Positions 55,214 to 60,719 of a stretch of DNA of 64,000 nucleotides are shown in pieces. The first letter of the stretch is position 1. Every line of letters begins with the position of its first letter. Position numbers and translations under genes: made by a program. A model generated the notes under the pieces. That model did no database searches. It saw only the letters and a program-made list of their open reading frames with translations, and had not been told where the DNA came from. Source of the DNA: Bacteroidota bacterium (GTDB taxonomy: Bacteria; Bacteroidota; Bacteroidia; B-17B0; Aurantibacillaceae); assembly GCA_025362395.1 (NCBI GenBank), contig JANYGK010000021.1, positions 1 to 64,000 on the forward strand. Reading direction: 5' to 3'.

Positions 55214-57268
55214 ATGTTGAACAGGCTTTTACTCCCCATACTCTTTCTTATTTTATGTGTATCTATCTCATATTCGCAAACAACCAATACAAAAAAATGG
55301 CGCGGATCGGAAAATGATTCTATGCAAAATGCTTTATTACTATATGAAGAAGGTAATTATTTGCTGGCATTACCCATTTACGAAAAGTTATATACTTCTC
55401 ATCCCAAAGAAGAATATTTAAAATATTGTTACGGCAAATGCGCTTTGCAAAGAAGCGATAAGCATGAGATAGCGTTAACACTGTTAACGGAAATCTATAC
55501 CAAAAACCCTAAAGTAGATAATATAGAATATGATTTGGCAAGAGCAAACCACTATAATTATAAGTTTGATGAAGCTCTGGCCTTTATTGATAAATCACTT
55601 GCAAACAAACGTATAAATAATGAAACAAAAACAGCGGCAAAACAATTACAACAGTATTGTATTAACGCTAAAGAGTTTTACTCGCATCCCACAAACGCGC
55701 AGATTAAAAACGCGGGTAGTATTTTAAATACCGAATACGATGAATACGTTCCTGTTATTTCAGCCGACGAATCTATTATGTTATTTACTTACAGGGGTAA
55801 AGAAAGTAACGGGGGCTTACAAAATGCTTTTCAGCAGCCCGATCCTAACGGAATTTATTATGAAGATGTTTTTCAGTCTGTAAAAGAAAATGATAAATGG
55901 ACAGTACCTACTCCCGTAAAAACTATTAATACCAATTCTCACGATGCCGCTATTGCCCTTAGTGCAGATGGTATGCATTTATTCAGTTATAAAGATAACG
56001 GAGATGACCATGGCGATATTTATATGAGCTCCCTTATTAACAGTGAATGGACAGCTCCGCAAAAATTAAAAGGACAAGTTAACTCATATTCCTGGGAAGG
56101 CAGCTGCTCAATGACGGCAGACGGAAGACAACTTTATTTTAGCAGTGAACGCGGCGGCGGTTTTGGAGGAAGGGATATTTACAGAGCTACATTGCTGGCA
56201 GACAGCACTTGGGGGAATGTTGTTAATTTAGGAGACAGCATTAATACAGCTTTAGACGATGATGCTCCTTTTATTCACCCCGACGGTACGACCTTATTTT
56301 ACAGTTCTAAAGGTAAAAACAGTATGGGAGATTATGATATATTTCAAACCCGCTTAAACTGGTTGGACTCTACATTCAGTAAACCTATTAATTTAGGATA
56401 CCCCATTAATACCCCCGACGGCGACCGGTTTTATGTGTTATCGGCTAACAGTGAAAGAGGGTATTACGCCAGCGGAAAAAGCGGCGGTTTTGGCTTACAG
56501 GATATTTATACGGTTTACCCCGGGTATATTGGCAAAAAGCCTTCGGTATATATTGTAAAAGGAAAAATTACAAATGATAATAAAGCCATAGCGGCAGATA
56601 TTACAGTAGAGATTACTAATAAAGACAACAAAAAATACGGGGATTTTTCAAGTAATTCATTAACCGGAAATTATTTAATATCACTGCCCGCAGGAGGTTT
56701 CTTTAAGTTAACGTATAAGTATAAATCATTTGCCTATAAAACGCTTGACATCAATACATCCAATTTGGAAGGTTATGAAGAGAAATTATTTGATATTAAT
56801 TTTGAAACCAAGCTTGATACCGTAAAGCCCGTAGCCGTTGTGGTTCCTGTAATTACACCTAAAAAAGATACGGTTGCAGCTGCAGCTAAACCCATCATAC
56901 CTATTAAAAAAGATACCTTTGTTGCCACAAAAGCTATTCATGAAAAAAACAGGATTTATGCTGAAAAATATGGTGACATTACAGCGGAGGGCCTGGTATT
57001 TAAAGTTCAGATTGCCGCGTACAAGTATCCCAAAAATTATACTTACGATCATTTAAAAGGCTTGGGAGAAGTAGATCATTTTTTATTGGATGGCATAACA
57101 CGTATTACCATTGGCGGAGATTTTAAGAATTTGAACGGGGCTTGGAATCATTGCAAAAAAGTAATTACCGCAGGGCAGACAGACGCGTTTGTAACTGTTT
57201 TATATAAAGGCAAGCGTGTTTATTTGGAAGACCTTGAAAAGATGGGTATTTTTGTTGCGAAACCATAA
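55214..57268 (+). CDS. Exported TPR-PD40 envelope protein with SPOR-like end (copy 1)
   Basis: A 684-residue envelope protein. Signal peptide 1-22 (ending SYSQ), a TPR-like helical region to about 150 (LLYEEGNYLLALPIYEKLY), then about five PD40 propeller repeats at 165-440 (LSADGMHLFSYK, MTADGRQLYFSSERGGGFGG, IHPDGTTLFYSSKG). A carboxypeptidase-regulatory-like domain follows (about 448-540, VKGKITNDNKAIAADITVEI), then a low-complexity linker and a C-terminal SPOR-like domain (about 598-684, FKVQIAAYKYPKN, DAFVTVLYKGKRVYLEDLEKM). The layout is that of PorE/T9SS-type peptidoglycan anchors, but with SPOR in place of OmpA. Paralogue of the next gene. Confidence 0.78.
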   Translation: MLNRLLLPILFLILCVSISYSQTTNTKKWRGSENDSMQNALLLYEEGNYLLALPIYEKLYTSHPKEEYLKYCYGKCALQRSDKHEIALTLLTEIYTKNPKVDNIEYDLARANHYNYKFDEALAFIDKSLANKRINNETKTAAKQLQQYCINAKEFYSHPTNAQIKNAGSILNTEYDEYVPVISADESIMLFTYRGKESNGGLQNAFQQPDPNGIYYEDVFQSVKENDKWTVPTPVKTINTNSHDAAIALSADGMHLFSYKDNGDDHGDIYMSSLINSEWTAPQKLKGQVNSYSWEGSCSMTADGRQLYFSSERGGGFGGRDIYRATLLADSTWGNVVNLGDSINTALDDDAPFIHPDGTTLFYSSKGKNSMGDYDIFQTRLNWLDSTFSKPINLGYPINTPDGDRFYVLSANSERGYYASGKSGGFGLQDIYTVYPGYIGKKPSVYIVKGKITNDNKAIAADITVEITNKDNKKYGDFSSNSLTGNYLISLPAGGFFKLTYKYKSFAYKTLDINTSNLEGYEEKLFDINFETKLDTVKPVAVVVPVITPKKDTVAAAAKPIIPIKKDTFVATKAIHEKNRIYAEKYGDITAEGLVFKVQIAAYKYPKNYTYDHLKGLGEVDHFLLDGITRITIGGDFKNLNGAWNHCKKVITAGQTDAFVTVLYKGKRVYLEDLEKMGIFVAKP

Positions 57269-57398
57269 ATAGATACTACTGCTTATTGTAGTATGAAATT
57301 ATTAAATGCAGATATTAAGGTTACCATTTAGTTTATTTTTTAAGACTATATATTGAAGATTATGTACTTTGATCTATCCTGTTTTAACATTTAATTAG

Positions 57399-57406
57399 TA
57401 AGTTTG
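57399..57406 (+). promoter_or_regulatory. Bacteroidota-type -7 promoter element of PD40 copy 2
   Basis: TAAGTTTG matches TAnnTTTG exactly and lies 16 nt before the ATG at 57423. It suggests that the second copy can be transcribed on its own. No well-spaced -33 TTG. Confidence 0.45.
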
Positions 57407-57422
57407 ACACATATTAAAGATT

Positions 57423-59393
57423 ATGTTTCTTAAAATATTAAGTGCTGTTTTACTTTTTAGTTGTTTTCCTTTTTTTTCACAAACTACAGATGTAAGGAAC
57501 TGGAGGCTGTCGGAAAGTGATTCAATGTACCACGCTTTTACGTTGTTTGAGAAAAAGAATTATAGAGAAGTGCTTCCGGTTTTTGAAAATATCTATAAAT
57601 CACATCCCGGCGAAACGTTTATAAAATATTGTTATGGTGTTTGTGCTCTCGATCGCACGGATAAACAGCCTGAGGCTTTAACCTTACTGAACCAGGTGTA
57701 TAAAAAAAACAATAAGATTGAAGATATTGACTATTACCTGGCAAAAGCAAACCATCTGAATTATAATTTTGAAGAAGCTTTAACAATCATAAGCTCAGGT
57801 AATACAAAAAGTAAAAATAATTTTTCTGAAGACATAAAACCGGATCTTCAATTGCTGAAGCAATATTGTGTTAATGCTAAAGTTTTGTATTCAAATCCTA
57901 CTACCGCAATTATTACAAACATAGGTAATGTTATAAACACAAAAGATAATGAAGAGATTCCGTTAGTTGCTGCCGATGAATCGATCATGATCTTTACAAA
58001 AACCGATTCCCGCCCTGAAAATAAGGATATTGTAAGTGCATCGGGCGTATACTTATCGGTTAAGGATAATGATAATTGGCTTAAACCCGCACTAATTAAT
58101 AAAGGTGGGGCAAGGGACAAAGCAATCGCCCTCAGTTCCGATGGATTAACCTTATTCTTATACCATGAAGACGCTACAGGGAACGGTGATATTTACAGGA
58201 GCGATTTCGATTATTTTGAATGGTCTGTTCCTCAAAAATTAAAAGGCGATGTTAACTCAAATGCGTGGGAGGGGTCCTGTTCTATATCATCCGACGGAAA
58301 ATGCCTTTACTTTAGCAGTAACCGCGAGGGGGGCTTGGGAGGAAAAGATATTTACAAGGCAACCTTACTGGCGGATAATAATTGGGGAGAAGTAGTTAAT
58401 TTGGGCGAAACAATAAACACGGCATCTGATGAGGAATCCCCGTTTATTCATGCCGATGGCACTACCTTATTTTTCAGCTCCAAAGCAAGAAATAGCATGG
58501 GAGGCTATGATATCTTTCAATCTAAATGGAATGCTAAAGATGTGAAGTTTATGGAGGCAGTAAATTTAGGTTGTCCTATTAATACGCCCGACGATGATTT
58601 ATATTATACCTTAACTGCAAATGGAAATACGGGCTATTATGCTTCCGGTAAAAATGGCGGAGAAGGCTTAAAAGATATATATAAAATTACCAACGGTTAC
58701 ATTGGTGAAAAGCCTCTGGCATTTGTGGTAAAAGGTGTTGTTACTAAGGCGCTCAACGTATTGTATTCTGACATTACCATTGATATTACCAATAAAGAAA
58801 ATAAAGTGTTGGGAGAGATAAAGGTAAATACTGTAAACGGTACTTATATGGTTGTTTTACCATCCGATAATGAATACAAGTTAGTTTATAAATACAAATC
58901 ATTTGAGTATAAAACAATTGATGTAAATACATCCCGTTTACAGGAACCGCCGGAGCAGATTATTGATGTATTTTTTGATGTGAAGCCTGATCTTGTTAAA
59001 ACGGATAGTGCAAAAGATTCGGTAAACATGGCTTTACAGCAACATGAGTTAACTAATGCTTCCGGTGAAAAACTGAAGACGTTTGCTGCCAAATATGGTA
59101 ACATAAGCGCCGACGGTTTACAATTTATGGTACAGATTGGGGCTTACAAATACCTTAAAAAATATGATTTCAAAAAATTAAAAAAAGCAGGAAAGATAAC
59201 CGAGCTTAATTTAAACGACGGTATTACCCGTATTATAATAGGCGGAACTTTTAGTACATTGAACAAAGCATACGAGTATACTCAAAAGGTAATTAAAGCA
59301 GGGCAGCCCGATGCGTTTGTTACCATCCTATACAAAGGCAAGCGGGTGTTTCTTGAAGACCTTGAAGTACAAAAGATCTTTGTGCTAAAGTAA
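57423..59393 (+). CDS. Exported TPR-PD40 envelope protein with SPOR-like end (copy 2)
   Basis: A 656-residue tandem paralogue of the preceding gene with the same domain order: signal peptide to about residue 20, TPR region (FEKKNYREVLPVFENIY), PD40 repeats (LSSDGLTLFLYHED, ISSDGKCLYFSSNREGGLGG, IHADGTTLFFSSKARNSMGG), regulatory-like domain (VKGVVTKALNVLYSDITIDI), then a SPOR-like end (FMVQIGAYKYLKK, DAFVTILYKGKRVFLEDLE). Similarity runs along the full length, so this is an old duplication, not a fragment. It has its own -7 box. It ends 3 bp from the convergent nth-bcp fusion gene. Confidence 0.78.
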   Translation: MFLKILSAVLLFSCFPFFSQTTDVRNWRLSESDSMYHAFTLFEKKNYREVLPVFENIYKSHPGETFIKYCYGVCALDRTDKQPEALTLLNQVYKKNNKIEDIDYYLAKANHLNYNFEEALTIISSGNTKSKNNFSEDIKPDLQLLKQYCVNAKVLYSNPTTAIITNIGNVINTKDNEEIPLVAADESIMIFTKTDSRPENKDIVSASGVYLSVKDNDNWLKPALINKGGARDKAIALSSDGLTLFLYHEDATGNGDIYRSDFDYFEWSVPQKLKGDVNSNAWEGSCSISSDGKCLYFSSNREGGLGGKDIYKATLLADNNWGEVVNLGETINTASDEESPFIHADGTTLFFSSKARNSMGGYDIFQSKWNAKDVKFMEAVNLGCPINTPDDDLYYTLTANGNTGYYASGKNGGEGLKDIYKITNGYIGEKPLAFVVKGVVTKALNVLYSDITIDITNKENKVLGEIKVNTVNGTYMVVLPSDNEYKLVYKYKSFEYKTIDVNTSRLQEPPEQIIDVFFDVKPDLVKTDSAKDSVNMALQQHELTNASGEKLKTFAAKYGNISADGLQFMVQIGAYKYLKKYDFKKLKKAGKITELNLNDGITRIIIGGTFSTLNKAYEYTQKVIKAGQPDAFVTILYKGKRVFLEDLEVQKIFVLK

Positions 59394-59396
59394 AAT

Positions 59397-60719
59397 TTAC
59401 AGATCTACTATTTGTTTACCGTGCTGTTTACTTTTTACATCAGTAATTACATTCGATATGATCCCTTTTTCATTTATAATAAATGTGGTTCTTATAATAC
59501 CGTCGTAAATTTTCCCCATAAATTGTTTTGTTCCCCAAACATCATACGCTTTAATAACAGCCATATCTGTATCGGCCAGTAACGAAAAAGGAAGATCAAA
59601 TTTCTTGGCAAATTTTTGATGCATTGTTTCATCGTCGGCACTTACACCCAATACCACGTAATTGTTTTTTGTAAGCAAAGTGTGCTCATCACGAAGGCTG
59701 CAGGCTTCTAATGTGCAAGTGGGGGTATTGTCTTTCGGATAAAAATATAATACTACTTTCTTTCCTTTAAGGTCAGCCAACACAATAGCTTTTCCGTTTT
59801 GGTCTTTTACTTTAAAAGTGGGCGCCTTATCGCCTGCTTTTAATGAAGTGCTGTGCGCAACAAATTTAGTTACCGGAATGTTTTTAGGTAGCGCGGCTTT
59901 TTTTTCTGCAATACCTGCTTTAATGTTCGATTGTTTTATCGGGGCTGTTTTTAATTTTTTTACAGTTTTAGACTCACCGGCAGTAGCGGTTTTTGTTATG
60001 TTCTTTTTTGCGGGTGCTTTAACGGATATTTCTTTAGCCATGGAATTGGTTTTTTTAGATAACGAGTGAGGATAGTTTTTGTTTATGACCTTTGTTTTAA
60101 AAAAATGACACCATTCAGTCAGCGGACAAATTTCGCATTTCGGGTTTCTGGCTACACAAATATAACGCCCGTGTAAAATAAGCCAATGGTGGGCAGTTGC
60201 AATGTATTCTTCAGGAATATGTTTAACTAATTGCTGCTCACTTTGCAGCGGGTTTTTTGCTTTAGTAAGCCCTATGCGGTTAGATACCCTGAATACATGC
60301 GTATCGACAGCCATAGTGGGCTTTTCATAAATAACGGAAGCAACCACATTTGCTGTCTTTCTTCCTACACCGGGCAGCTTCATTAAGTCATCAATGTCAC
60401 TCGGAATAACTCCATTAAAATTATGAAGCAACATATTGGCCATGTTTACCAAATGCTTTGCCTTATTGTTGGGATAGCTTACACTTCTTATATACGTAAA
60501 AATAGTTTCGGGGTTTGAAGCAGCCAATACTTCGGCGGTAGGAAAATTTTTAAATAGATTTGGTGTTACGAGGTTAATGCGTTTATCGGTGCACTGAGCT
60601 GACAATATAACAGCAACAATTAATTCGTACGGGTTCGTGTAATTCAGCTCAGTTTCTGCAACCGGCACATTTGTCTTAAAATAATTTATAACACCTGTGT
60701 ACCGTTCTTGTAAAGTCAT
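59397..60719 (-). CDS. Endonuclease III - Bcp-type peroxiredoxin fusion
   Basis: One 440-residue frame joining two enzymes. Residues 1 to about 215 are endonuclease III (Nth), a base-excision-repair glycosylase/AP lyase. It shows the HhH motif LPGVGRKTA (115-123) with catalytic K121, the catalytic D139 in AVDTHVFRV, and the [4Fe-4S] cysteines C188, C195, C198, C204 (C-X6-C-X2-C-X5-C). Residues 227-290 are a Lys/Ala-rich linker starting with Met227 (MAKEIS). Residues 292-440 are a Bcp/AhpC-TSA peroxiredoxin, with AGDKAPTFKVKDQNG, peroxidatic C335 in YPKDNTPTC and resolving C340. No stop or frameshift separates the parts. A second start at Met227 (60041) could give free peroxiredoxin. Confidence 0.9.
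   Translation of the reverse strand: MTLQERYTGVINYFKTNVPVAETELNYTNPYELIVAVILSAQCTDKRINLVTPNLFKNFPTAEVLAASNPETIFTYIRSVSYPNNKAKHLVNMANMLLHNFNGVIPSDIDDLMKLPGVGRKTANVVASVIYEKPTMAVDTHVFRVSNRIGLTKAKNPLQSEQQLVKHIPEEYIATAHHWLILHGRYICVARNPKCEICPLTEWCHFFKTKVINKNYPHSLSKKTNSMAKEISVKAPAKKNITKTATAGESKTVKKLKTAPIKQSNIKAGIAEKKAALPKNIPVTKFVAHSTSLKAGDKAPTFKVKDQNGKAIVLADLKGKKVVLYFYPKDNTPTCTLEACSLRDEHTLLTKNNYVVLGVSADDETMHQKFAKKFDLPFSLLADTDMAVIKAYDVWGTKQFMGKIYDGIIRTTFIINEKGIISNVITDVKSKQHGKQIVDL

Follow-up and report, generated by a model that had tools for sequence, protein, structure and literature searches.

Tandem TPR-PD40 envelope proteins of a Bacteroidota bacterium carry a SPOR domain in place of an OmpA-type wall anchor

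Introduction

PorE (PG1058), a protein of the type IX secretion system (T9SS) of Porphyromonas gingivalis, consists of a TPR domain (residues 25–149), a WD40 propeller (167–435), a carboxypeptidase-regulatory-like domain (CRD, 441–527) and an OmpA_C-like domain (534–668); the solved structure of the last of these contains a portion of a peptidoglycan stem peptide (PMC7192894). In the same organism, a protein with a type B C-terminal domain (CTD), PorP and PorE form a complex (PMC9143113). The protein CHU_0125 of Cytophaga hutchinsonii likewise ends in OmpA, and its deletion impairs outer-membrane integrity (PMC5891637). SPOR domains bind glycan strands that lack stem peptides (such peptides would clash), and every known SPOR protein acts in division or morphogenesis (PMC6895207). 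Here we describe two adjacent genes that join a PorE-like body to a SPOR domain. They lie in a stretch of 64,000 nucleotides, hereafter the window, from a Bacteroidota bacterium (Bacteroidia; B-17B0; Aurantibacillaceae; assembly GCA_025362395.1, contig JANYGK010000021.1, positions 1 to 64,000 of the forward strand), and are referred to as copy 1 (P0001; 55214–57268, + strand, 684 amino acids) and copy 2 (P0002; 57423–59393, + strand, 656 amino acids). No published link between SPOR and a PorE-type scaffold was found among titles and the first lines of abstracts in open-licence PMC.

Results

The C-terminal module is a SPOR domain

The C-terminal module of both proteins belongs to the SPOR family (PF05036). 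It spans residues 594–676 of copy 1 (56993–57241, + strand) and about residues 566–649 of copy 2 (59118–59369, + strand), and contains the motifs FKVQIAAYK/FMVQIGAYK and DAFVTVLYKGKR/DAFVTILYKGKR. Its identity is clearest at the level of the family. Alignment A1 comprises 36 of 42 modules from the window's own genome and from relatives, gathered by BLAST without a motif filter (A1 omits L063, L067, L073 and three modules of L086; L025 and duplicates of loci from the window's genome had been set aside earlier). PF05036 was matched by 23 of these 36 modules at E ≤ 1, with a best E value of 2.6e-5, and none of the other 18 Pfam families listed was matched by more than one member. Against all PDB sequences, the A1 profile returned the SPOR domain of CwlC (1x60) as its sole clear match (E 4.1e-7), the next entry standing at 0.058.

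The fold agrees with the profile. An AlphaFold model of the copy 1 module (predicted local distance difference test, pLDDT, 89.2; predicted template modelling score 0.82) displays the ribonucleoprotein-like fold of SPOR domains with a reduced helix α1. Relative to the textbook domain, a single turn of α1 is left, and β4 leads into a GKR hairpin and a short helix (GKR...LEDLEK). Structural alignment of the model to Foldseek's top 1000 chains gave Z scores of 7.3 for the CwlC domain, 6.2 for the RlpA domain with denuded glycan (6i09) and 6.0 without glycan, 4.5 for DedD and 4.4 for DamX; unrelated chains scored from 3.8 down, and FtsN scored 3.2. An exported protein of Burkholderia that is not labelled SPOR (6ozd_B) reached 7.2, level with 1x60.

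Several results speak against this assignment. As single sequences, the modules of copies 1 and 2 score 12.4 and 15.1 bits (E 0.031 for copy 2) against PF05036, whose cut-off is 21, and three unrelated Pfam families nominally outrank SPOR when the copy 1 module is scanned by itself (E 0.092, 0.092 and 0.15 vs 0.21). The Pfam scan of full-length copy 1 does not list PF05036; in a whole-genome search with this family copy 2 falls below the cut-off and copy 1 is not listed. Foldseek's direct search with the module model found nothing at E ≤ 0.001, the DedD SPOR domain appearing at rank 20 (E 0.21), and all structural Z scores are below 8. Taken together, the Pfam matches across the family, the A1 profile and the structural alignment rule out a chance resemblance. 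An earlier note on this DNA, made from the sequence alone, had remarked that the module looks like SPOR and had named a profile or fold pointing elsewhere as grounds for abandoning the idea; profile and fold both lead to SPOR.

Conservation of glycan-contact residues

RlpA contacts its bound sugars through the backbone at Ala273 and through four side chains, those of Gln270 and of three arginines; the SPOR domain of FtsN has a single basic contact residue, Arg285, and that of CwlC has Lys47 and Lys42 (PMC6895207). Motif alignment, and for CwlC also profile alignment, places the equivalents in copy 1 at Gln599, Ala602 and Arg630. Within A1, Gln599 is kept in 36 of 36 modules, Ala602 in 31, a basic residue at position 630 in 32 (Arg in 31) and Arg or Lys at position 668 in all 36. 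A larger set, A3, holds 89 modules (the two of the window and 87 of 101 others); here Arg630 is found in 87, Arg or Lys668 in 89 and Gln599 in 78, with Glu in the remaining 11. Loci for A3 were gathered by means of the peptide pattern F[KR]VQ[IV][AG]A[YF][KR], which spans Gln599 and Ala602, so the conservation of these two residues in A3 is partly due to selection, an effect that touches neither A1 nor positions 630 and 668. Both window copies retain the equivalents of Gln599 and Arg630 in the alignment, and their SPOR modules thus combine the contact glutamine with one basic position, as in FtsN.

The genome also contains a clear Amidase_3 gene (C5:1738-2469), situated inside a 572-amino-acid frame (C5:940-2469) that itself matches SPOR, and therefore an enzyme potentially able to make the SPOR ligand is present. 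The conserved contact residues and the amidase gene, both read from sequence, lend indirect support to a denuded-glycan target. Because the OmpA_C-like domain of PorE holds a stem peptide and SPOR holds strands without one, exchange of the one anchor for the other would shift the target from intact to processed wall.

The body is that of PorE and CHU_0125

Ahead of the SPOR module, both copies share a signal peptide, a TPR region, a PD40 propeller, a CRD-like sandwich and a linker. They are 52% identical across residues 7–683, and the earlier view of them as two full-length paralogues of common domain order, with PD40 repeats and shared C-terminal motifs, holds for the open reading frames on the + strand. 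In copy 1 the signal peptide, read by eye, occupies 55214–55276 (+ strand; model helix 2–20); it ends after SYS in one copy and FFS in the other, each before QTT, and by eye neither copy has a lipobox. A full-length AlphaFold model of copy 1 (alignment of 56 sequences; pLDDT 89.7) shows helices at residues 31–157 (55304–55684, + strand), propeller strands at 163–435 (55700–56518, + strand), a β sandwich at 445–530 (56546–56803, + strand), a disordered stretch of the linker with pLDDT below 50 at 535–564 (56816–56905, + strand), a helix at 574–586 and the compact module at 594–676. Pfam PD40 is above its cut-off in both copies (E 3e-16 and 1.7e-15 for copies 1 and 2), with two stretches per copy passing individually and five repeat units seen by eye. 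TPR families are matched in both copies below the cut-off. CarboxypepD_reg matches copy 1 below the cut-off (E 0.012) and is absent from the copy 2 matches at E ≤ 1. A sequence search of whole copy 1 against solved structures returned mostly TPR and TPR-like repeats, and a fold search with Foldseek returned many propellers, those of TolB at ranks 4 and 5.

Comparison with NCBIfam models identifies the relatives of this body. The T9SS_PorE model (NF052230) matches copy 1 with 154.7 bits (E 2.9e-45, residues 36–471) and copy 2 with 145.3 bits, both short of its cut-off of 600, and the copy 1 match ends at position 448 of the 648 in the profile, ahead of the OmpA part. The CHU_0125_OmpA model (NF053607, cut-off 620, reached by neither copy) gives 179.1 bits for copy 1 (E 1.4e-52, residues 36–501) and 164.7 bits for copy 2, and its matches end at profile positions 480 and 503 of 639, before the OmpA part. 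When the published limits of PorE are set beside those of the copy 1 model, the first three domains nearly coincide. The Pfam and NCBIfam scans detected no OmpA domain at the C-terminus of either copy, and a PF00691 search of the genome (20 matches) placed one on this contig, at 100741–101031, and none at the pair's genes; a C-terminal OmpA domain is thereby ruled out for copies 1 and 2. The PorE-like order with OmpA replaced, which the earlier note had put forward, is thus confirmed: the TPR-propeller-CRD part is homologous to PorE, and the OmpA part is absent.

The genome holds 23 stretches that match copy 1. Among eight further paralogues examined with Pfam, seven end in OmpA (L005, L007, L010, L013, L015, L016 and L018), and the last, L017, has no Pfam family at E ≤ 0.001. 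The best PorE candidate among ten proteins scored by NCBIfam is an OmpA-type protein at C89 (479.3 bits), which by eye also lacks a lipobox. Besides the window pair, full-length SPOR-type proteins were found in this genome at C95 (L003) and C109 (L004). The end of contig C12 (L011) holds the first part of a TPR-PD40 gene and the end of C24 (L012) the last part of one; an assembly gap may have split a single gene here. A PorP/SprF gene follows the part on C24.

Distribution and phylogeny of the SPOR-type proteins

The related loci considered here are the best 80 of 323 relatives, all from Bacteroidota and some with short flanks. At least 72 distinct frames closed at both ends combine a body match with SPOR among these loci, the body match being only partial in some, for example L125 and L126; several relatives carry two or three SPOR copies. 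One locus with the architecture (L145) comes from a metagenome-assembled genome labelled Vicingus serpentipes. The arrangement is not an oddity of the window. The PD40-SPOR proteins are a family that is wide in Bacteroidota, and they represent a variant of the PorE/CHU_0125 kind whose wall anchor would have the opposite preference. SPOR types were sampled with a SPOR query and OmpA types less densely, and some domain calls (for the hybrids, tandem rows and genome G006) use hidden Markov models (HMMs) built from our own alignments. A further alignment, A4, was made from both window proteins together with 54 others out of 72.

A careful tree of 54 body sequences places all 39 SPOR rows on one side of a single branch (support 98/94; 98% of bootstrap trees). 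A 2347-amino-acid protein adjoins them (93/79), and all stand inside a larger set of OmpA types. A quick tree (SH-aLRT support only; 49 OmpA and 33 SPOR rows) also recovers the SPOR cluster (91), with the giant just outside (92), and includes in it one hybrid (L242) and one row without either anchor (L242_718). Two zero-distance pairs among the 33 SPOR rows, L156/L245 and L165/L244, are probably the same genes from two collections. The clustering of SPOR rows in the body trees fits one exchange of the anchor, followed by spread and duplication. The giant itself (L052:2656-9699, at C12 of the window's genome) begins with TPR-PD40, continues through a long low-complexity middle and ends in three SPOR modules; frames of about 1800–2400 amino acids with SPOR modules recur across the class.

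Three hybrids from genome G047 establish that both anchors can stand on one scaffold. In the 889-amino-acid product of L254 each anchor passes its own Pfam cut-off, OmpA with 77 bits and SPOR with 25.3 bits. The first gene of L242 encodes 1120 amino acids with OmpA (Pfam E 4e-22) and then two SPOR modules (1e-28 and 2e-33 with our HMM; below the cut-off with Pfam SPOR); the other genes of its tandem row are two of SPOR type and a body gene with DUF2914 at its end. L253 encodes 619 amino acids with OmpA (Pfam E 1.8e-24) and then SPOR (6e-12 with our HMM; not listed by Pfam at E ≤ 0.1). Given the position of the L242 hybrid, the one hybrid placed in the tree, within the SPOR cluster, its OmpA domain could be retained or regained. 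The fourth gene of the L242 row (L242:9579-11663) is a TPR-PD40 gene that ends in DUF2914, not in OmpA or SPOR.

Genome G006, of the same genus, has a tandem pair as in the window. The quick tree joins copy 2 to its G006 counterpart, with a long stem (0.69) leading to this pair, and joins copy 1 to the copy 1 of G006, so the duplication is older than the split of these two genomes and copy 2 has diverged fast.

Gene neighbourhoods

The window pair is located between Sua5 and Nth-Bcp genes, neighbours that suggest no partner. (The names Sua5, UppS, BamA, Skp, DnaN, M16 peptidase and glutamine synthetase are what we take these genes to be from reading their sequences.) At L088, L090, L091 and L105 copy 1 occurs as a single gene between the same neighbours. 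SprA is present in the genome as two pieces, located at contig ends, and 13 PorP/SprF genes pass the cut-off; a T9SS is therefore likely present. The contig of the pair contains no match to PorP/SprF. Nor does any of 17 SPOR types, the window's genome included, have PorP on the same strand within 1 kb, among the 150 body genes listed from eight genomes; the corresponding counts are 12 of 63 OmpA types, one of two hybrids, nine of 31 short and 14 of 37 untyped genes. This count used the best-scoring 150 of 158 PorP and 150 of 190 body matches, together with 28 of 96 SPOR matches, one per frame and only from frames able to coincide with a body match (64 of the 96, also one per frame, entered another comparison). 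Genes counted in it as OmpA types are those whose match extends to profile position 610; the L242 hybrid is therefore among the 17 SPOR types, and the PorP-linked gene G031:C2 (L244) falls outside the 150 body rows. The link to the T9SS that the earlier note had drawn was not recovered for the pair.

PorP is the next gene in four of the 80 loci (L125, L126, L127 and L165). The first of three successive genes in L125, L126 and L127 encodes a large repeat protein that ends in a T9SS type B sorting domain (TIGR04131, cut-off 35; 53.3, 56.6 and 52.3 bits, respectively). A PorP/SprF barrel gene comes second and a PD40-SPOR gene third; the product of the latter has PKD, PD40 (just below the cut-off in L125 and L126, above it in L127) and two SPOR modules. 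These modules are 51–60% identical to that of copy 1, with Pfam SPOR below the cut-off or not listed; the proteins have no TPR match and their body is matched only in part. In L165 a type B domain (42.6 bits) and PorP precede a PD40-CRD-SPOR gene without TPR, whose body lies inside the SPOR cluster. In L253 a type B match below the cut-off (27.5 bits) and PorP (133.8 bits) accompany the PD40-CRD-OmpA-SPOR hybrid. In view of the P. gingivalis complex of a type B CTD protein, PorP and PorE, the PD40-SPOR genes after PorP stand in PorE's place. For the family as a whole, linkage to the T9SS by neighbourhood was mostly not found. In the window's genome, the gene for a 281-amino-acid protein with SPOR over the Pfam cut-off stands directly upstream of a PorP/SprF gene (L240:8280-10117, C25).

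Other settings were also encountered. The C109 paralogue (L049:7521-14413) stands at the end of a UppS-BamA-Skp-Skp series and adjoins a convergent DnaN gene, and the same order precedes a SPOR-type gene in L147, L150 and L166. The other 77 of the 80 loci, some with short flanks, contain no BamA match, and the available portion of the text of a paper on the β-barrel assembly machinery of Bacteroidota has no SPOR, TPR or propeller (PMC12611786); linkage to BamA was accordingly rejected as a property of the family. Loci of Flavobacteriales show a cluster of M16 peptidase, OmpA protein and glutamine synthetase. The differing neighbourhoods suggest that the partner probably differs from clade to clade. 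Downstream of the pair, a single reading frame of 440 amino acids on the − strand of the window (59397–60719) encodes endonuclease III (HhH-GPD, 4Fe-2S) fused to a Bcp/AhpC-TSA peroxiredoxin; in G006 (L228) the two are, by eye, adjacent reading frames.

A possible promoter of copy 2

According to the earlier note, copy 2 has a −7 box of its own and the two genes may be expressed differently. The element TAAGTTTG is indeed present at 57399–57406 (+ strand), 16 nucleotides before the second ATG, and TAATTTTG occurs 18 nucleotides before copy 2 of G006, a correspondence that suggests the box may be real. The motif is at background frequency in the window (TANNTTTG, 101 observed vs 101.4 expected, or about 0.12 expected on one strand of the 154-nucleotide gap), and no −33 element was seen before copy 2 at the usual spacing from a −7 box; the gap before copy 1 has no exact −7 box. 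Separate expression from a promoter of copy 2 is weakly supported by these features.

Discussion

On balance we consider it probable that the two genes encode exported periplasmic scaffolds that belong to the PorE/CHU_0125 superfamily and whose OmpA-like wall anchor has given way to SPOR. The TPR region and the propeller would bind an envelope partner; by analogy with PorE, which binds PorP, this is most likely a protein in the outer membrane or associated with it. A flexible linker would carry the SPOR domain, which, judging from its fold and conserved contact residues, would grip glycan strands cleared of stem peptides by amidases. In this way the scaffold would hold its partner not on intact wall but on peptidoglycan that has recently been processed, most likely at division sites.

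Alternatively, the pair could be division or wall-remodelling proteins like DamX, DedD and RlpA, in which SPOR brings the TPR-propeller to the septum to regulate wall enzymes, with no outer-membrane partner. Such a role is in keeping with that of all known SPOR proteins, which act in division or morphogenesis (PMC6895207), and with the amidase frame that has its own SPOR match; we nevertheless regard it as unlikely, as the nearest relatives of the body are proteins of the PorE/CHU_0125 type, whose place of action is the outer membrane, as PD40-SPOR genes follow PorP in four loci, and as by eye no division gene was recognised beside the pair. The proteins could also be true T9SS subunits, a PorE with a different wall anchor that tethers PorP/SprF-type barrels. 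The TPR-propeller-CRD homology, the type B-PorP-PD40-SPOR order of L125–L127 and L165 (with the sub-cut-off type B-PorP-hybrid order of L253), and the SprA pieces and 13 PorP/SprF genes of the genome all fit this reading. We find it distinctly improbable even so: PorP was not found on the pair's contig or on the same strand within 1 kb of any of the 17 listed SPOR types, it is next door in only four of 80 loci, some of which have short flanks, the proteins of L125–L127 have a partial body without a TPR match, and the OmpA-type protein at C89 (479 bits) is a better candidate for the PorE of this genome.

A last reading concerns the module alone, namely that the SPOR fold now serves to bind protein and has lost glycan binding. 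The reduction of α1 to one turn, the added hairpin and helix, and the two or three SPOR copies of several relatives would suit such a change, and some copies may have lost their function, given the Glu at the Gln599 position of 11 of 89 A3 modules. For the window pair, loss of glycan binding is very improbable, because Gln599 and Arg630 are kept in both copies as well as in 36 and 31 of the 36 A1 modules and 78 and 87 of the 89 A3 modules.

Extended beyond the window, the scaffold reading leads to a broader and speculative idea, which we hold to be rather unlikely: that two interchangeable wall anchors on one scaffold sort envelope machines. OmpA types would sit on intact, stem-bearing wall and SPOR types on amidase-processed glycan at division sites, placing some PorP/SprF assemblies and other outer-membrane machines at fresh cuts, and hybrids would bridge both. 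If true, this would offer a simple genetic means of studying how the placement of outer-membrane machines relates to division in Bacteroidota, and would name a widespread gene family for testing.

Compared with PorE of P. gingivalis, the window proteins have the same order of TPR, propeller, CRD and C-terminal wall-binding domain, and differ in that SPOR takes the place of the OmpA_C-like domain, that the pair is without a lipobox by eye, that no PorP gene was found on its contig, and that copy 1 scores 154.7 bits against a model cut-off of 600. With CHU_0125 they share the TPR-PD40 body (E 1.4e-52), whereas CHU_0125 ends in OmpA. Their SPOR domain resembles those of CwlC, RlpA, DamX, DedD and FtsN in fold, in profile and in the conserved glutamine and basic residue on the face of the sheet; it differs in that α1 is nearly gone and a C-terminal GKR hairpin and helix are present, and in that it is joined to a TPR-propeller-CRD body, not to a membrane anchor or a wall enzyme.

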